Shown one piece after another: positions 7,149 to 16,735 of a DNA stretch of 64,000 nucleotides (its first letter is position 1; each line of letters begins with the position of its first letter). The stretch comes from an uncultured bacterium (GTDB taxonomy: Bacteria; Bacteroidota; Bacteroidia; Bacteroidales; Bacteroidaceae). The translations under genes were made by a program, and so were the position numbers. Below the pieces are notes generated by a model, which worked only from the letters and a program-made list of their open reading frames with translations, was not told where the DNA came from and ran no database searches. The stretch is from assembly GCA_946188155.1 (NCBI GenBank), contig CAMHUC010000009.1, positions 1 to 64,000 on the forward strand, given 5' to 3'.

Positions 7149-8081
7149 TCACTTACTTTTCTTGTCGGCCAGGTACATACCTACAAGGATGAGCAGCGTG
7201 CCCAGTAGGAACCAGAGGGTGATCTGCTCGGAGAGGATGAGCCAGGCGAAGATGATGGTGGTGACGGGATTGAAGTAGACATAGTTGGTGGCCACGACGG
7301 CTCCAAGCTTCTTCATCACCCAGTTCCAGGCCAGGAAGCAGCCCATCGAGGCGATGCAGCCGAGGAAGAGGAGGTTGAAGAGAATTGAAAGATTGAAGGA
7401 TTGAAGAGTGGAAGAATTAAATATTCCAGTTTCTTCGGGTCGCCACATAAAATAAGGTATCATGGCGAGCAGTCCGTAGAAGAACACCTTGCGGGTGATG
7501 AATAGCGTGTTGTAACGACTGTTGGCCGGTATCATCAGCAGCGAGTAGAAGCCCCAGCAGAGGGCTGCCAGGAAGGCCAGCGAGTCGCCCAGGGGCGATA
7601 GATGGAGCACGAAATGGCCGTTGAGCACCACCACGGCGACGCCGAGTGCCGCCATCAGGGTGCCAAGCGTCTGCAGACGGCTGAGGCGCTGCGAGCGGTA
7701 GAAGATGACGATGAGTGCCGTGGCCACGAGTGGCGACAGGCTGACGATGAGCGAGGTATTGGTGGTAGTGGTGTAGTTCATCGCAGTGTTCTCGGCGAGG
7801 AAGTAGAGCGTGCCGCCACTGATGCCCAGCAGGAGCATCAGCAGCTCGTCGCGCCAGGAGTCGGCAAAGAGGCGCAGCCGCTTCCTGGCATAGCTGTAGC
7901 CCAGCAGCAGCACGTAGGCGATGATGAACCGCAGCGTGAAGATCTGCGCCGGCGTAAGGCCGCCGAGCAGCAGCAACTTGGTGGATATGAACGTAGACCC
8001 CCAAATTGCCACTACCGCGAAAGCAGCCAGATGATATATCAAGCCCTTCTCTCTCACCTTTTTCCACTCACCTCTCACCAC
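7149..8081 (-). CDS. EamA/DMT-family transporter
   Basis: 310 aa, ten predicted TM segments, AIWGSTFISTKLLLLGGLTPAQIFTLRF; carries an internal word-array insertion. Confidence 0.85.
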   Translation of the reverse strand: MVRGEWKKVREKGLIYHLAAFAVVAIWGSTFISTKLLLLGGLTPAQIFTLRFIIAYVLLLGYSYARKRLRLFADSWRDELLMLLLGISGGTLYFLAENTAMNYTTTTNTSLIVSLSPLVATALIVIFYRSQRLSRLQTLGTLMAALGVAVVVLNGHFVLHLSPLGDSLAFLAALCWGFYSLLMIPANSRYNTLFITRKVFFYGLLAMIPYFMWRPEETGIFNSSTLQSFNLSILFNLLFLGCIASMGCFLAWNWVMKKLGAVVATNYVYFNPVTTIIFAWLILSEQITLWFLLGTLLILVGMYLADKKSK

Positions 8082-8876
8082 TCACCTCTTAATCTCGATA
8101 TCCCGACGCACATTATTCCGAATCTTCGTCAGATATGCCTTCATGCCCTCAGCATCCTTCGTGTCTATAATCTCGAGCAGCTCTTTCAGCTCGGTGCGTA
8201 TCTGGCTGACCTGATCGTGGGTGTAGGGGTTGAAGAGGATTTCCTGCAGCAGGTAGTCGTCCTCGTTGAGCACGCCCTTGGCTATCTTCATGTGGCGCTT
8301 GAAGGTGGTGCCCGGTGCGTCCTGATGCTTCATGACGGCAGCGAAGACGAAGGTCGACACGAAAGGAATCGACAGCGAGTAGGCCACCGTCTTGTCGTGC
8401 TCCTCGAAGGTGTACTCGTAGATGTTCAGGCCCAGTCGCTGGTAGAGGTCCTTGAAGAAGATGCGCCCCATGTAGTCGCCCTCGCTGATGATGATGGCGT
8501 TCTCCTCGGAGAGCTGCTGCAGGTTGGCGAATGTGGGTCCGAACATCGGGTGGGTGCTGACGTAGCGCATGCCCGACTGCTCATAGAACTCCTTCAGGTC
8601 AGTCTTCACCGACGCGATGTCGCTGATGATGCACTCCTTGGGCAGATAGGGTATCACCTCGCGGAACACGGGGATGGTGTACTTCAGCGTGACGGCATTG
8701 ATGAGCAGCTCGGGCTGGAAGGCCTGCACCTCCTCGTAGGTGGTGAACCGCTGACAGTTATAGGTGAACCGCATGCGCTTGGGGTCGCGCTCGAATACAG
8801 CCACCTCGTGGTCGAAACTCAGCAGGTCGATGAAGAAGCTTCCCATCTTGCCTGCTCCCATAACTAATATCTTCAT
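8082..8876 (-). CDS. tyrA: Prephenate dehydrogenase
   Basis: MKILVMGAGKMGSFFIDLLSFDHEVAVFERD; YVSTHPMFGPT; located in the aromatic amino-acid operon. Confidence 0.85.
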   Translation of the reverse strand: MKILVMGAGKMGSFFIDLLSFDHEVAVFERDPKRMRFTYNCQRFTTYEEVQAFQPELLINAVTLKYTIPVFREVIPYLPKECIISDIASVKTDLKEFYEQSGMRYVSTHPMFGPTFANLQQLSEENAIIISEGDYMGRIFFKDLYQRLGLNIYEYTFEEHDKTVAYSLSIPFVSTFVFAAVMKHQDAPGTTFKRHMKIAKGVLNEDDYLLQEILFNPYTHDQVSQIRTELKELLEIIDTKDAEGMKAYLTKIRNNVRRDIEIKR

Positions 8877-8987: not shown

Positions 8988-10052
8988 TTACTTGTTAATA
9001 ATCTCCATTTGCTGACGCACCGACTCCTCGTGGATATTCTCGAATACGCGGGCCACGAACTCGGCGTCCATGCCGGTCAGTGTGCCCTGTGCGCCGCGCT
9101 TGTTCAGGATCTCGTTGTAGCGGTTGGTCTGCAGCACGGTCATGTTGTGTTCCTTCTTATACTGGCCTATCTCGCGGCATACCTTCATGCGACGGGCCAG
9201 CACGTCCATGATCTCATTGTCGAGCTCGTCAATCTGCTTACGCAGCTGGGTGAGTCCTTCGGTGGTGGTGTTCTCGTCGCGGATGACGAGCAGCGAGAGG
9301 ATATAGTCGAGCACGTCGGGCGTCACCTGCTGCTTGGCATCGCTCCACGCCTTGTCGGGGTCGCAGTGGCTCTCGATGATCAGTCCGTCGAAGCCCAGGT
9401 CCATGGCCTGCTGGCAGAGCGGTGCTATCAGCTCGCGGCGGCCTCCGATGTGGCTGGGGTCGCTGATGATGGGCAACTCGGGGATTCGGCGGTGCAGCTC
9501 GATGGGTATCTGCCACATCGGGGCGTTGCGGTAGATCTTCTTCTCATAGCTGGAGAAGCCGCGATGGATGGCCCCCAGCCGCTTGATGCCGGCCTGGTTG
9601 AGGCGCTCCATGGCCCCGATCCATAGCTCGAGGTCGGGGTTAACGGGGTTCTTGACGAACACGGGGATGTCCACACCCTGCAGGGCATCGGCCAGGGCCT
9701 GCATGGCGAAGGGGTTGGCCGAGGTGCGCGCACCAATCCAGAGGATGTCGACACCATACTTCAGGCAGAGCTCCACATGCTCGGGCGTGGCCACTTCGGT
9801 GGAGACGAGCATCTTGGTCTCCTGCTTCACCTGCTTGAGCCACACTAAGGCCGGCTCGCCGTGGCCTTCGAAGCCGCCGGGCTTGGTGCGGGGTTTCCAC
9901 ACACCGGCACGGAAGTTGTGGCAGCCCTTCATGGCCAGTTCGCGGGCAGTAGTCATCACTTGTTCCTCGGTCTCGGCAGAGCAGGGGCCTGCTATCACGA
10001 AGGGACGTTCGTTGTCACTCGGAAGGTTCAGTTTTTCTAATTCCAGTTCCAT
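8988..10052 (-). CDS. Bifunctional 3-deoxy-7-phosphoheptulonate synthase/chorismate mutase
   Basis: RPFVIAGPCSAETEEQ, FRAGVWKPRTKPGGFEG; C-terminal chorismate mutase domain LRKQIDELDNEIMDVLARRMKV. Confidence 0.93.
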   Translation of the reverse strand: MELELEKLNLPSDNERPFVIAGPCSAETEEQVMTTARELAMKGCHNFRAGVWKPRTKPGGFEGHGEPALVWLKQVKQETKMLVSTEVATPEHVELCLKYGVDILWIGARTSANPFAMQALADALQGVDIPVFVKNPVNPDLELWIGAMERLNQAGIKRLGAIHRGFSSYEKKIYRNAPMWQIPIELHRRIPELPIISDPSHIGGRRELIAPLCQQAMDLGFDGLIIESHCDPDKAWSDAKQQVTPDVLDYILSLLVIRDENTTTEGLTQLRKQIDELDNEIMDVLARRMKVCREIGQYKKEHNMTVLQTNRYNEILNKRGAQGTLTGMDAEFVARVFENIHEESVRQQMEIINK

Positions 10053-10540: not shown

Positions 10541-11716
10541 TCAGATAAAAACACTTTCAATTCTCCTCAGCGCCTCAAGAATTATCTCCTCCTTGGCGCA
10601 GAGCGAGATGCGGATGTAGCGCTGGCCGTTGCTGCCGAAGATGAAGCCGGGGGTGATGAATACTCGGGCCTCGTGGAGCACACGCTCGGTGAGTTCCTCC
10701 ACGTCGGCATACTTATCAGGGATGCGCCCCCAGAGGAACATGCCCACTTGCGAGGGGTCGAAGGTGCAGCCGAGCACCCTCATGATCTCCTCGGCATAGC
10801 GACGCCTACGGGCGTAGGTATTGATATTGTACTCCCGATGCCAGGCGTCGTCGTTCTTGTAGGCCTCGGCAGCGGCCAGCTGGATGCCACGGAAGGTGCC
10901 GCTCTCGATATTCGACTGCACCTTCAGTATCCAGGAGATAAACTCAGCGTTAGAGGCACAGAGTCCTACGCGCCAGCCCGGCATGTTGTGGCTCTTCGAC
11001 ATCGAGTTGAACTCTATGCAGCAGTCCTTGGCACCCGCCACCTGGAGGATGCTCAGATGCTCCTCGCTGAGGATAAAGCTGTAGGGGTTGTCGTTTACCA
11101 CGACCAAGCCGTGGTCTGCGCCGAACTGCACCAGGCGCTCGTAGGTCTCGCGGCGGGCACGCCCGCCTGTTGGCATGTTGGGATAGTTGGTCCACATCAG
11201 CTTCACCCGCGAGAGATCCATCCGCTCCAGCTCGTCGAAGTCGGGCTGCCAGCCGTTTTCCTCGCTGAGGTTGTAGTTGACGATGTTCGCCCCGAGAATC
11301 TTCGAGAGCGAGGTGTAGGTGGGATAGCCGGGATTGGGCACAAGCACCTCATCGCCGGGGTTCACCAGTGCGAGGGTCACGTGCAGTATGCCCTCCTTCG
11401 AGCCGATGAGGGGCAGCACCTCGCTCTTGGGGTCGAGGCTGACGTCGTACCAGCGCTGGTAGAAGTCGGCCATCGCCTGGCGCAACTCCGGCGTGCCCAT
11501 CGTTGGCTGATAGCCGTGGGCACTGGGGTCGTGGGCCACCTCACAAAGTTTCTCCACGGTCTGCTCCGACGGCGGCATGTCTGGACTGCCTATGGCCAGG
11601 CTGATGATGTCGCGGCCCTCGGCGTTGAGCTGGGCCACCTCCTTCAGCTTGCGGCTGAAGTAATATTCGCTTACGAGCGACAGGCGCTCGGCGGGTTCAA
11701 TTCGTTTGCTTTCCAT
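10541..11716 (-). CDS. PLP-dependent aminotransferase (class I/II; aromatic operon)
   Basis: LAIGSPDMPPSEQ, NPGYPTYTS, FNSMSKSHNMPGWRVG (PLP-lysine region). Confidence 0.9.
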   Translation of the reverse strand: MESKRIEPAERLSLVSEYYFSRKLKEVAQLNAEGRDIISLAIGSPDMPPSEQTVEKLCEVAHDPSAHGYQPTMGTPELRQAMADFYQRWYDVSLDPKSEVLPLIGSKEGILHVTLALVNPGDEVLVPNPGYPTYTSLSKILGANIVNYNLSEENGWQPDFDELERMDLSRVKLMWTNYPNMPTGGRARRETYERLVQFGADHGLVVVNDNPYSFILSEEHLSILQVAGAKDCCIEFNSMSKSHNMPGWRVGLCASNAEFISWILKVQSNIESGTFRGIQLAAAEAYKNDDAWHREYNINTYARRRRYAEEIMRVLGCTFDPSQVGMFLWGRIPDKYADVEELTERVLHEARVFITPGFIFGSNGQRYIRISLCAKEEIILEALRRIESVFI

Positions 11717-12539
11717 CCTTATATTCTCCTAATATCTTTAAGTCTTTTGTCAGCGGTACTATGGCATCGATCGACTGCCTGTAGCGGGTCAGGTCGTCGT
11801 ACATCACGTCGACGTAGAACAGATACTCCCACTCCCGTCCGATGATGGGCAGCGACTGAATCTTCGTCAAGTTGATGTGGTAGAACGAGAGGATGGCCAG
11901 CACGTGAGCCAGCGAGCCCTGCTCGTGGGGCAGCGAGAATACGATGCTCGACTTGTTGGTCTCCGTCAGGGGGCGCAGCAGGTCGGCCTTGTAGGGGTTC
12001 GACACCACGAGGAATCGGGTGAAGTTGTGCTTGTTGTCCTCGATATGGTCCTCGAGCACCTTCAGGCCGTAGAGCCGCGCTGCCTCGGCGTGGCAGATGG
12101 CCGCCCATCCTCGGTGCTGCCCCTCGCTGATCATCTTCGCCGAGCCGGCCGTGTCCTCAGCCTCCACGTTCTTCAGCGCCGGGTGCTGGGCCAGGAACTG
12201 GCGGCACTGCATCAGTGCCACGGGATGAGAGTGAACCTCCCGGATGGAGTCCCAGTCGTCGTCCGGCAGACAGCAGATGCAGTGGGAGATGTGCAGCTTG
12301 TGTTCGCCTACGATAGTCGTGCCCGAATCGCGCAGCAGCTCGTAGTTATGGAGCAGGCTGCCGGCGATGGTATTCTCTATGGCGAGCATGCCGATGGCCG
12401 TGGGATCCTGCTTGATGTTCTGGAACACCTCCTCGAAGGTGCTGCAGCAGATGAGCTGTATCTGCTCGCCTTCGAAGAAGAGGTGCGCCGCGATGTCGTG
12501 AAACGACCCTATGAGTCCTTGTATGGCAATCCGTTTCAT
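11697..12539 (-). CDS. pheA: Prephenate dehydratase
   Basis: AIQGLIGSFHDIAAHLFF; AIENTIAGSLLHNYELL; FTRFLVVS; ACT-type C-terminus SIVFSLPHEQGSLAHVLAILSFYHINLTKIQSLP. Confidence 0.92.
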   Translation of the reverse strand: MKRIAIQGLIGSFHDIAAHLFFEGEQIQLICCSTFEEVFQNIKQDPTAIGMLAIENTIAGSLLHNYELLRDSGTTIVGEHKLHISHCICCLPDDDWDSIREVHSHPVALMQCRQFLAQHPALKNVEAEDTAGSAKMISEGQHRGWAAICHAEAARLYGLKVLEDHIEDNKHNFTRFLVVSNPYKADLLRPLTETNKSSIVFSLPHEQGSLAHVLAILSFYHINLTKIQSLPIIGREWEYLFYVDVMYDDLTRYRQSIDAIVPLTKDLKILGEYKDGKQTN

Positions 12540-12569: not shown

Positions 12570-12610
12570 ATCTAAACAGAAACCCCGTCTCACATAGTGT
12601 GAAGCGGGGC
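12570..12610 (-). terminator. Leader-region intrinsic terminator (attenuator) upstream of pheA
   Basis: Minus strand GCCCCGCTTCACACTATGTGAGACGGGGTTTCTGTTT: stem CCCCG.TTCAC / GTGAG.CGGGG plus T-rich tail; competing upstream strand TGTGAAGCGGG at 12659-12669. Confidence 0.8.
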
Positions 12611-12645
12611 TGTGTCTATTCTTATCTCTATCCTATTCGCTGAAC

Positions 12646-12723
12646 TTATACGCAACGACCCGCTTCACAACTGCTTGCAAAGTAAAAGTAATAGCCGTAA
12701 AAGTATGCGTTCAAGTGTGACAT
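12646..12723 (-). CDS. Phe/Tyr-rich leader peptide MSHLNAYFYGYYFYFASSCEAGRCV
   Basis: 25-codon ORF upstream of pheA; codons 7-15 are YFYGYYFYF; the antiterminator strand overlaps codons 19-22. Confidence 0.85.
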   Translation of the reverse strand: MSHLNAYFYGYYFYFASSCEAGRCV

Positions 12724-12750
12724 ATTCTGTTCTTTTTTGTATTTCGGATG

Positions 12751-12782
12751 CAAAAGTAATGTTTTTCCGCGAAACAAACAAA
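12751..12782 (-). promoter_or_regulatory. Promoter of the aromatic operon leader (TTTG-N20-TACTTTTG)
   Basis: TTTG at 12779-12782, 20-nt spacer, TACTTTTG at 12751-12758 on the minus strand, 28 nt upstream of the leader ATG. Confidence 0.65.
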
Positions 12783-12810: not shown

Positions 12811-14265
12811 TTACATTTTTCCTCCGACGGCCTCACATACTATCTCTGCCAGCCGCTCGGCACCCTTGCCATTGGGATGGATGCCGTCGGGCTGCACCAA
12901 GTCGGCACCGTCGGCGAAGAGAGTGTGCAAGTCAATTAACTGCAGCCCGTACTTCGCGGCCAGTTCCTTCTGAACGGGGATTATACCGTTGGCGATGACA
13001 GAGTCGTTGATTTCCCATGTCGACTTGAAAGCCGGGATGGGGGTACAGAGAAATATACGGGGTTTTGCCGGGGCTACAGTCTTGGCCTTCTTGCCTTTTT
13101 TCTTGGCAAGCTGAGCCAGCTGAGGACTGAGCGTGGTGATCATCTGCTCCAGGTCCTGACGGAACTCTGCGCCGTGCCGCCAGTTATGAGGCTTGGAGTC
13201 GTTGGTGCCGAGCTTAATGACCACGATGTCGGGCTTGAATGCCAGAGCATCCTTCCACGCCATCTCGTTCATATAGGGATGATCACCCTTGTTGAGCAGC
13301 GTTCGGGCGCTCACGCCGAAGTTCCTCACCCAATAGTCGCCGCCCAGTTTCTTCTGCAGCAGGGCAGGATAGCCGTAGGCCGTTGCCATGTCGATGCCGT
13401 GGCCGTCGGTGATGCTATTGCCGATGCAGGCCACGCGGATGGCATCCTTCCGGGGCACCTGGCGCGCCTTGAGCCAGTTGCCAAGATCCTGCAGCATCTG
13501 GTCGTGATAGGGAAACCAGGGGCCGAAGCCGAAACCGTGGTCGCCAGTGGGGTAGACGTAGAGCGAGCAGTCGTTGCCCACACTGCGCATGGCTGAATAG
13601 TAGGCGATGCCATTGGTGACGGGGGGCACCAGCCGGTCGTCGTTGGCTGTGATGATGATGGCCGGAGGGGTCAGGTGTCGGCGCACGGCATTCTGTGTCG
13701 AAAAGTCGCGCACCAGTGCCTTGTCCTTCTGTCCTTCCTCGCCAAGAAAATTTCGGCACGACCACTTATGCGTCAGCCGCTCATCCATCGAGATGACGGG
13801 ATAGAAGAGTATGGAGAAGTCGGGGCGCACCTCGAAGTCGGAATGCGTGGATATGACCGATGCCAGATGGCCGCCAGCCGAGAAACCCATGATACCTACG
13901 CTGTGGGGATTGATGCTCCAGACGTCTGCCGAGTCGCGCACGATGCGGATAGCCTTCTCCACATCGCCGATGGGTAGAGAGCGGTCGCCGTTGGGCAGGC
14001 GATAGTCCACCACGAAGTAGGCGATGCCCTGCTGATTCAGCCAGTCGGAGGCCTGATGCCCTTCATGGCTGTTCGACAAGACGGAGTAGCCACCGCCCGG
14101 CACCCCTACGATGGCCATGCCCGAGGGGTTGGTCGGGATATAGCACGTCATCTTGGCCTTACCATCGTCACTCAGGCCGATGGTGAACTTCCTCGCCGTC
14201 TGGGCTTGAACTGCCAACACCGTCAGCAGCAGCCCAATCATTGTCAACATTCCATTTTTCTTCAT
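12811..14265 (-). CDS. Two-domain secreted esterase: alpha/beta hydrolase plus SGNH/GDSL hydrolase
   Basis: Signal peptide; GFSAGGH nucleophile elbow and GDHGFGF; second domain CIGNSITDGHGID (GDS-like), KLGTNDSKPHNW, DGIHPNGKGAE. Confidence 0.85.
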   Translation of the reverse strand: MKKNGMLTMIGLLLTVLAVQAQTARKFTIGLSDDGKAKMTCYIPTNPSGMAIVGVPGGGYSVLSNSHEGHQASDWLNQQGIAYFVVDYRLPNGDRSLPIGDVEKAIRIVRDSADVWSINPHSVGIMGFSAGGHLASVISTHSDFEVRPDFSILFYPVISMDERLTHKWSCRNFLGEEGQKDKALVRDFSTQNAVRRHLTPPAIIITANDDRLVPPVTNGIAYYSAMRSVGNDCSLYVYPTGDHGFGFGPWFPYHDQMLQDLGNWLKARQVPRKDAIRVACIGNSITDGHGIDMATAYGYPALLQKKLGGDYWVRNFGVSARTLLNKGDHPYMNEMAWKDALAFKPDIVVIKLGTNDSKPHNWRHGAEFRQDLEQMITTLSPQLAQLAKKKGKKAKTVAPAKPRIFLCTPIPAFKSTWEINDSVIANGIIPVQKELAAKYGLQLIDLHTLFADGADLVQPDGIHPNGKGAERLAEIVCEAVGGKM

Positions 14266-14277
14266 CTTCTATACTCT

Positions 14278-14946
14278 TTATTTTAATAGTTTTAGCCATT
14301 CGAAGCGCACCTCATCGCGCTCCATCTCGTCGATGAGTATCTCCGCAAGCGCCTCAACCAACTGCTCCGGCACTCGGAAACGAATGTCGTCGCTATGCGG
14401 GTCGATGGCCGGCAGGAAATGGGGCATCTCGGCCTTGTACACATCCTTCATGCGCGAACCTCTCCCCCCGTCGGCCGAACAGGAATAGGCAATGTTGGCC
14501 AGCCGGTCGCAGAGCTTGACGAATGGGGCGTAGGGTGTCTCACGGATGCCACGGTAATACTTCTCCCCCGCCCGCTCGGCACGCGTGCGCCCCTTGTCGT
14601 TGGTCAGGGCATAGACAATCTCCGTGGCCATCAGGGCCTGCTCGCCCTTCATCCACTTCAGGGCCGTCTTCATCACGTCATTGTACGTCAGCCGCGCATC
14701 CTCGATACTGTCGTGGTAGTAGCCGCCGAAGAACATCGGCACCACATCCTCCTCACGGGCACACACCAGGTGGCCGTAGTCGTGGATGCCCTGCACCACC
14801 ATGTCGAGGTGGAACCCGTAGGGCAGCGAGTCGCCATACGTCTGGTTCACACTCTGGTGAAGGTCATGGGCCGACTGCCTTATCTCTTCTATCTGCGGAG
14901 CGTACTTCTCTTCATACGCCTGAAATTCTTCTTTCTTCATAATCAT
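14278..14946 (-). CDS. HD-domain phosphohydrolase
   Basis: YYHDSIEDARLTYNDV and KLCDRLANIAYS resemble RelA/SpoT-type HD motifs. Confidence 0.65.
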   Translation of the reverse strand: MIMKKEEFQAYEEKYAPQIEEIRQSAHDLHQSVNQTYGDSLPYGFHLDMVVQGIHDYGHLVCAREEDVVPMFFGGYYHDSIEDARLTYNDVMKTALKWMKGEQALMATEIVYALTNDKGRTRAERAGEKYYRGIRETPYAPFVKLCDRLANIAYSCSADGGRGSRMKDVYKAEMPHFLPAIDPHSDDIRFRVPEQLVEALAEILIDEMERDEVRFEWLKLLK

Positions 14947-16544
14947 TATCTATTGTCGTTCTCGTACTTCTTTGACTCATACCGCTCAATCCGGCACTCA
15001 TGCTGTTTAGTCTCGCGGTCGTAGCTGATGCCCACTAAGAGCAGGCGGTCGGCATATTGGGCCACCTTGTCAGGATATTTCCTGCACTTGATTTGCGAGA
15101 GGGCCGTGTCGGCTGTCTGATTATACTTCAACTCGATAACGACGGCAGGCGAATTGACATTCTTGCGGGGGATGAGCACCAGGTCGGCAAAGCCCTTGCC
15201 CGTGGCATACTCGCGGTGGATGATATAGTCATTAAAAGCATAGTAGTAGGCGATGCTCAGCACGCAGGCCAGCGAATTCTCGTCGTTATAGCTCAGGATG
15301 CTCGTATGCTCGTCGTGGGCCGCGTCGACGCCCCGCGCCACAGCAGCCTCATCACCGGCGAGGGTGGAGCGCAGCAGCTGTCTAGACTCATCCAGCGCCG
15401 AGGCCACACGACTCCAGCTGGCATCCCTGACCGCATTGACCATCTCGCCGGCCACCTCGCGGTTGGGTATGTAGCACTCACTCTCGCGCCAGTCGTAGCT
15501 CAGATAGCCCAGATGAATGAGTACCGTCAGCACGTCATCCTTTGAGCGGATGACCGACATGTCATTCTGGAAGCCTGTTGGATCGACGTAGCACCGCCCG
15601 CCGGCCAGCATCTCGATAACGTCATCCTTCAGCCCCTCGTAGTTCATCTGGATATAACGGGCCACGGCGTCGTAGGCACCCGTCGAGGCCCAGAAGCTGC
15701 GGCAACGGCGGCTGCGAAGGGCCGACATCACGGAGTTAGGGTTAAACATAGACAGTGTGTCGCCTATCTGATAGCCGTCGTACCACTTCTCCAGTTCGTC
15801 GAAGTCCATCTGGTGCTTCTCGGCCAAGGCTTTCACCTCGTCCTTCGTGAAGCCGAAGAAAGACCCCATGTCGATAGGCTCCACCATCGAGTACTCCTGG
15901 AAGTTGTTCAGAGCCGACTCCGTCTTGTATTTCTTCACAGGCAGGATGCCCGTCATATAGACACCGGCGAACACCCTGCTTGCCTCCGCGCTCTTGAACA
16001 TCCGCCGGAGCCACGACACATAGCTGTCCATAGCCTCACTCCCCGGGGCGAACTCACGGCAGATGGCATCCCACTCGTCGATGATGAAGAAGAACTGCTG
16101 CCCGTGCCTGGCTGCTATCCGCATGAGCAGGGCCATCAGGTCGTCGTCAGCCTCCTGGCTCACGTCGGGATAGGCCGCCGAGATGTCCTTGCGCAGCTCG
16201 GCATCCATCCTCTGCACGATGTCGTCAGTCTTATACCGCGTCACGAAACTCGTCAGGTCGAGATAGATGACAGGATATTTGTTCAAGTGCTTCTCAAACG
16301 TCGGGTCGCCGGCTATCCGCAGGTCGGCGAACAAGGCCCGCGAGTCGCACGACTGGTCGTAGTAGGCACAGAGCATCTTCGCCGCCATCGACTTGCCGAA
16401 GCGGCGGCACCGCGTCACACAGCTGAAGCTGCGCTCAGTAAAGAGCGTGCTGTTCACAACGGCGATAAGCCCCGACTTATCCACGTACTCACTATTCCGC
16501 ACTCGCTGGAATCCGGCATTACCTGTATTGATGTAATTTCCCAT
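14946..16544 (-). CDS. AAA-ATPase-like/PD-(D/E)XK nuclease-domain protein
   Basis: RNSEYVDKSGLI, CVTRCRRFGKSMAAKML, IDEWDAICREF; C-terminal FADLVLIPRKNVNSPAVVIELKYNQ nuclease motif. Confidence 0.88.
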   Translation of the reverse strand: MGNYINTGNAGFQRVRNSEYVDKSGLIAVVNSTLFTERSFSCVTRCRRFGKSMAAKMLCAYYDQSCDSRALFADLRIAGDPTFEKHLNKYPVIYLDLTSFVTRYKTDDIVQRMDAELRKDISAAYPDVSQEADDDLMALLMRIAARHGQQFFFIIDEWDAICREFAPGSEAMDSYVSWLRRMFKSAEASRVFAGVYMTGILPVKKYKTESALNNFQEYSMVEPIDMGSFFGFTKDEVKALAEKHQMDFDELEKWYDGYQIGDTLSMFNPNSVMSALRSRRCRSFWASTGAYDAVARYIQMNYEGLKDDVIEMLAGGRCYVDPTGFQNDMSVIRSKDDVLTVLIHLGYLSYDWRESECYIPNREVAGEMVNAVRDASWSRVASALDESRQLLRSTLAGDEAAVARGVDAAHDEHTSILSYNDENSLACVLSIAYYYAFNDYIIHREYATGKGFADLVLIPRKNVNSPAVVIELKYNQTADTALSQIKCRKYPDKVAQYADRLLLVGISYDRETKQHECRIERYESKKYENDNR

Positions 16545-16735
16545 ACTGATATTTTTCTGCAAAGATAGTGCTTTTTCCCGAAACGGCAAAACATTTCTTT
16601 CGGATAATGTCACAAACGGTGCTTAACTCCTCGGACACATACGCAAATAGAGATTGCAACCGGTTTGCAAAAATATAAAATTCCGCGCCTCCCGTGCCAT
16701 TCGTGACTAAAAAAATTGTACCTTTGCACCCGATT

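Follow-up and report, generated by a model that had tools for sequence, protein, structure and literature searches.

Aromatic leader region upstream of pheA

The locus examined here raises the question of how transcription is controlled in an operon for the synthesis of Phe and Tyr. In the window, that is, the whole 64,000-nt stretch of DNA analysed, a short minus-strand region separates pheA from axeA1, an acetylxylan esterase gene that ends at 12811, and this region contains a promoter, a leader ORF and four RNA strands arranged as alternative hairpins (Table 1). The nearest named relatives of the genome are rumen Prevotella and Xylanibacter ruminicola (family Prevotellaceae, class Bacteroidia).

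The first-pass annotation had described a TTTG-N20-TACTTTTG promoter, a 25-codon ORF with Tyr or Phe at 8 of codons 7-15, a terminator with a T-rich tail before pheA, a strand exactly complementary to the 5' arm of this terminator, and the gene order pheA-aminotransferase-DAHPS/CM-tyrA. Direct reading of the minus strand recovered the first four at the same positions, and the gene order was verified with Pfam. The terminator-like hairpin (CCCCGCTTCACACTATGTGAGACGGGG, 12609-12583) has a single internal C.A mismatch in its stem and is followed by a T-rich tract that is interrupted. The longer segment of strand 2, TGTGAAGCGGG, is the exact 11-nt reverse complement of CCCGCTTCACA (12608-12598). 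A protector hairpin (12682-12675/12670-12663) competes with the pairing of strands 2 and 3, and with it all four strands of a classic attenuator are in place. Neither a simple terminator scan nor a sigma-70 promoter scan of the window listed the element, owing to the interrupted T tract and to a promoter that does not belong to the sigma-70 type. The motif TANNTTTG occurs in 79/79 leaders of close Prevotella and 79/81 leaders of the family, roughly 50 nt 5' of the aromatic run; in shuffles the rate is 5-6%.

The window leader has 8 aromatic residues within 10; for most real leaders the count is 7 to 10, while shuffled upstream regions reached at most 6, and did so 4 times in 744. The aromatic run is not a product of chance, since it lies above the shuffle maximum and is conserved in hundreds of genomes.

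Table 1. Coordinates of the pheA leader element and of the genes downstream of it in the window
Feature	Coordinates	Strand	Details
Promoter, Bacteroidota-type	12751..12782	minus	-33 TTTG 12782-12779, 20 nt spacer, -7 TACTTTTG 12758-12751
Leader peptide ORF MSHLNAYFYGYYFYFASSCEAGRCV	ATG 12723 to TAA 12646	minus	25 codons; read from sequence, conserved
Control codons 7-15, YFYGYYFYF	12679..12705	minus	Sequence; run conserved across class Bacteroidia
Strand 1, protector hairpin 5' arm CTTTGCAA	12675..12682	minus	Pairs with strand 2
Strand 2	12659..12670	minus	TTGTGAAG 12670-12663 pairs with strand 1; TGTGAAGCGGG 12669-12659 pairs with strand 3
Strand 3, terminator 5' arm CCCCGCTTCACA	12598..12609	minus	Sequence, comparison
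Strand 4, terminator 3' arm TGTGAGACGGGG	12583..12594	minus	Sequence, comparison
T-rich tract TTTCTGTTT	12574..12582	minus	Sequence; tract interrupted
pheA, prephenate dehydratase	11697..12539, ATG at 12539	minus	PF00800, E 1e-56
Class I/II aminotransferase	10541..11716	minus	PF00155
DAHP synthase fused to chorismate mutase (DAHPS/CM)	8988..10052	minus	PF00793 + PF01817
tyrA, prephenate dehydrogenase	8082..8876	minus	PF02153
EamA/DMT-family exporter	7149..8081	minus	PF00892; start directly behind tyrA

With pheA, the aminotransferase, DAHPS/CM and tyrA, the operon covers the synthesis of Phe as well as Tyr, and it includes the step at which the aromatic pathway as a whole begins. The EamA/DMT exporter may be the final gene of this operon; its resemblance to the aromatic exporter YddG is weak, with an NCBIfam YddG match below the cut-off. 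Elsewhere in the genome, hisG has a promoter close to the gene and no His leader was seen there, and a TWY-pattern search for further aromatic runs gave 66 matches versus 111 for the reversed control pattern. The window also contains, at 14946-16613 on the minus strand, a predicted AAA-ATPase with a PD-(D/E)XK nuclease-like C-terminus (PF09820 + PF08011).

Distribution of the leader in Bacteroidia

The leader ORF, the terminator and the antiterminator strand were present upstream of pheA in all 80 of the nearest Prevotella loci, 79 of which were scored; the remaining one (L076) is cut by a contig end and still retains strand 2 and the terminator. The same element precedes pheA in 81/84 genomes of the family, 34/37 of the order and 28/30 from other orders of Bacteroidia, which indicates, as far as sequence comparison can tell, an element conserved throughout the class. 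Outside Bacteroidia, a pheA leader was found in just 3/16 genomes from other classes of the phylum. The leaderless members of the family (L208, L212 and L219) all have a lone pheA, and in L163 and L164 a coding frame, tentatively aroA, extends up to pheA.

The three leaders from other classes belong to L141 (G231), L143 (G350) and L167 (G283), where an aromatic leader precedes pheA. Their PheA proteins are closer to the query than those of most other-class genomes, and this similarity suggests that operon and leader were transferred together into these lineages. In L143, pheA lies within a 702-aa open frame, possibly encoding a fusion protein.

Pairing and covariation of the RNA strands

A terminator follows 222/225 leaders, and the pairing of strand 2 with the terminator 5' arm is stronger than in shuffles (median z about -4). 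Among 78 distinct Prevotella leaders, 100% of cells pair in helix 1:2, where an A-U to G-C double change occurs in 29 sequences, and helix 3:4 shows double changes at four pairs, with 0/500 shuffles as good. The core of helix 2:3 is nearly invariant in these 78 sequences, so that the Prevotella set provides no covariation support for this helix.

Across the order and the class, strands 2 and 3 differ by lineage (for example, GAGCGGGA/TCCCGCTC, GGCCGGGA/TCCCGGCC and GCGAGGCTTTG/AAAGCCTCGT). At these levels, in 61/65 cases, strand 2 pairs more stably with the terminator arm of its own leader than with foreign arms on average, with medians of -13.0 and -9.0 kcal/mol, respectively. Within the family, the same control gave 54/79, a weak result since the motif is nearly uniform there. 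The first-pass annotation had proposed that orthologous leaders be compared for a conserved aromatic run and for covarying stems; in the close, family, order and class draws, upstream leaders retain both the run and the stem complementarity, and compensatory changes occur in the protector (1:2) and terminator (3:4) hairpins.

Coding constraint and ribosome geometry

In the 78 Prevotella leaders, the wobble base of codons 7, 8 and 12 varies while the aromatic residue is retained; Tyr, Phe or, rarely, Trp interchange at codons 7, 9, 11 and 12, and codons 13-15 are invariant. No change at any base was detected in codons 19 (TGT) and 21 (GCG), as expected if these positions are constrained by base pairing instead of the encoded residue.

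The distance from the last aromatic codon to the start of strand 2 is 9-12 nt, with medians of 9 (close set), 12 (family), 11 (order) and 10 (phylum draw), and standard deviations of 0.4 nt in the close set and 2.7 nt in the family. The distance from strand 2 to the stop codon has a standard deviation of 11.8 nt in the family and can be negative. Fixed spacing on one side and a variable stop distance on the other mean that the register is set by the control codons. Strand 2 starts approximately at the expected edge of a ribosome stalled at the last aromatic codon, so the spacing fits the earlier proposal that such a ribosome leaves strand 2 free for the antiterminator.

This geometry was tested assuming that the ribosome covers 10 nt beyond its A site. 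When the last aromatic codon occupies the A site, helix 2:3 is predicted to form in the nascent RNA, folded up to strand 3, in 205/206 leaders, and to be masked mostly 2-4 codons further on; under the assumed footprint, stalling thus exposes strand 2 and progress masks it. Equilibrium folding of the window leader predicts antitermination when codons 11-15 occupy the A site and termination from codon 16 onward, although the 5' limit of this range is sensitive to details and unreliable. An antitermination window appeared in just 91/219 leaders when the complete leader was folded at equilibrium and, since this is less than half of them, the switch must be kinetic. With no ribosome present, 2:3 is preferred in the nascent RNA and 3:4 in the full leader, so the untranslated state is not firmly predicted. 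In one genus (L010, L012, L015, L016 and L175) the leader ORF continues for about 33 nt after strand 2; strand 2 would then not be covered by a ribosome that has reached the stop codon, and the genus would need timing or an additional feature.

Leader codons and downstream genes

Downstream genes were scored in a first sample consisting of loci with enough flanking sequence. Behind all 157 leaders with at least two Tyr codons in the run, pheA is followed by the aminotransferase and/or DAHPS/CM. The five leaders with no Tyr in the run (L029, L113, L124, L135 and L138, the peptide of L135 having one Tyr elsewhere) all have a lone pheA downstream. A second draw from further genomes of the same order, taken as a test of this match, gave 68/68 Tyr+Phe leaders before the operon and 3/3 leaders without Tyr in the run (L345, L372 and L378; L372 has one Tyr outside it) before a lone pheA. 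Two loci of this draw (L310 and L312) come from genomes already present in the first one and are not among the 157. Combining both samples, pheA plus shared or Tyr genes lie downstream of 225/225 scorable Tyr+Phe leaders, and a lone pheA lies downstream of 8/8 Tyr-less runs. These eight leaders do not represent eight independent events because they were drawn from five families, and some families are represented in both samples. The aromatic codons therefore match the genes of the operon, in agreement with the mixed Tyr+Phe sensor put forward in the first-pass annotation.

L225 has a single Tyr inside a long Phe run and the full operon downstream, and the nearest to an exception is L383, a leader below the score threshold whose run (IRFFFYF) contains one Tyr before a lone pheA. 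Loci without a leader are mixed, mostly with a lone pheA and a few with the operon.

Approximately half of the leaders from other Bacteroidia orders contain one Trp codon. Exactly one such codon in or next to the run was observed in L144-L146, L149-L152, L155, L156, L158-L160, L166 and L231, and also in L075, L099, L101, L103 and L109. Leaders of this type possibly sense all three aromatic amino acids, and a Trp codon would fit control of the shared DAHPS step.

For lone pheA genes, the rest of the operon was sought elsewhere in 11 genomes. In four of them (G110, G134, G144 and G482) both parts have their own leader: the run is MQQLNAYVYSYYYFTLTR before the aminotransferase part versus FFSNFFFVF before pheA in G110, MNNTFGYYAFYYYFFYNN versus FFTHFFFFF in G134, and VFAYFYYYFYF versus FRFFFFFAFFF in both G144 and G482. 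G053 and G217 have no leader before pheA but a mixed one before the other part. No leader was seen in the sequence examined for G072, G154, G208, G487 and G552, the upstream sequence being short for G072, G154 and G487. Second aromatic leaders before an aminotransferase-DAHPS/CM-tyrA part separated from pheA are found in L390, L392, L393, L394 and L396, and at the end of L270.

Together, these genomes probably reflect an ancestral, class-wide attenuator of Bacteroidia that senses Tyr and Phe jointly, and whose sensor codons were re-dealt when the operon split, with Phe-only leaders at lone pheA and Tyr-containing leaders at the aminotransferase-DAHPS/CM-tyrA part. Genomes with split operons constitute a natural experiment linking leader codons to the genes they control. 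If this scenario is true, the leading ribosome trails RNA polymerase in Bacteroidota closely enough to control termination.

Proposed mechanism and alternative explanations

Several features by which an attenuator is recognised were found together: a leader ORF with a run of codons for an amino acid made downstream, a terminator hairpin and T tract between this ORF and the first gene (the tract being interrupted in the window), and a mutually exclusive antiterminator that uses the terminator 5' arm. With a probability of roughly 0.93, the element is a classic ribosome-mediated transcription attenuator before the pheA operon, a reading supported by conservation, spacing, covariation in helices 1:2 and 3:4, and the match between codons and genes.

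From this anatomy and from the established enteric systems we infer leader translation, ribosome stalling, termination and an effect on expression. RNA polymerase would start about 20 nt upstream of the 25-codon leader gene. When charged tRNA-Tyr or tRNA-Phe is scarce, the first ribosome would stall in the aromatic run with its front edge just short of strand 2, strands 2 and 3 would pair as antiterminator, and polymerase would continue into pheA-aminotransferase-DAHPS/CM-tyrA. When both tRNAs are charged and plentiful, the ribosome would move 2-4 codons beyond the run and mask strand 2, so that strands 3 and 4 would pair and transcription would stop near 12574. If the switch works in this way, ribosome and polymerase are functionally coupled in Bacteroidota.

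Three other explanations were considered and rejected on the evidence against each. In a translation-independent RNA switch, the hairpin would be selected by a metabolite or protein bound to the leader RNA, and the aromatic ORF would be incidental; this would account for the clear alternative hairpins, and translation of the leader is a prediction. Nevertheless, aromatic identity is retained throughout the class despite base changes, the distance from the run to strand 2 is constant, at a length that suits a ribosome, amid otherwise variable spacing, Tyr codons are missing from the run where Tyr genes are not downstream, and no Rfam riboswitch matches, all of which make such a switch very improbable.

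It is hardly credible that the hairpin is an ordinary terminator of the upstream gene, or part of an independent small RNA, with pheA not regulated. Although axeA1 has the same orientation, with its end only 200 nt ahead of the hairpin, it adjoins pheA in only 7/168 loci, compared with an almost universal leader; furthermore, a promoter lies between axeA1 and the leader, and strand 2 would be left without a role. Finally, TnaC-type arrest peptides work by ligand sensing in the ribosome tunnel, and the aromatic peptide might sense a free amino acid or other ligand there, with stalling independent of tRNA charging. Identical cores in some leaders, such as YFYGYYFYF, are what this idea would predict, but Tyr and Phe are freely permuted in order across genera (YFYFFFYFYF, FFYFYFYF, FFFFFF), as expected for codon sensing, and an arrest peptide is accordingly very improbable.

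Relation to known systems

Comparative predictions of amino acid attenuators, including some in Bacteroidetes/Chlorobi, were reportedly made by Vitreschak et al. in 2004 and by Lopatovskaya et al. in 2010. The latter study is cited in PMC4833913. In B. thetaiotaomicron, sORFs reminiscent of attenuating leader peptides have been mentioned (PMC7366714), and Bacteroid-trp RNA (RF01692) is a candidate cis-regulatory RNA of Bacteroidetes named for trp genes (PMC2864571); its covariance model matched neither the genome of the window nor the pheA leaders. Searches of the leaders with Rfam covariance models yielded no family at the gathering score and, up to E 10, chance matches only. The main text on the Flavobacterium psychrophilum transcriptome presents strong indications that amino acid operons are preceded by leader-peptide attenuators, and it describes a structured element 5' of pheA that is shared among Flavobacteriaceae and has no Rfam match (PMC9723704). 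This element belongs to the same class and the same gene as the Prevotella leader; that main text gives no peptide, sensor codons, mechanistic detail or extent beyond Flavobacteriaceae.

In the openly accessible main texts searched, no description was found of a Prevotella or class-wide Tyr+Phe leader family, nor of the partition of sensor codons. Thus, the kind of regulation is textbook and partly reported for Bacteroidia, and its class-wide extent, the mixed sensor and the codon partition look new. The leaders constitute a regulatory RNA family with clear limits, not represented in Rfam, for the aromatic operon of a class that ranks among the most abundant in gut and rumen.

A close parallel is the enterobacterial pheA attenuator (pheL), in which a leader peptide rich in codons for the end product lies ahead of mutually exclusive antiterminator and terminator hairpins formed by strands 1-2-3-4. 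The element described here shares with it the end-product codons, the exclusive hairpins, the four-strand layout and pheA as downstream gene. It differs from pheL in lacking an Rfam family match, in its Bacteroidota promoter, in a strand 2 that often lies within the leader ORF and in a mixed Tyr+Phe sensor, sometimes with one Trp, placed over an operon that also makes Tyr.
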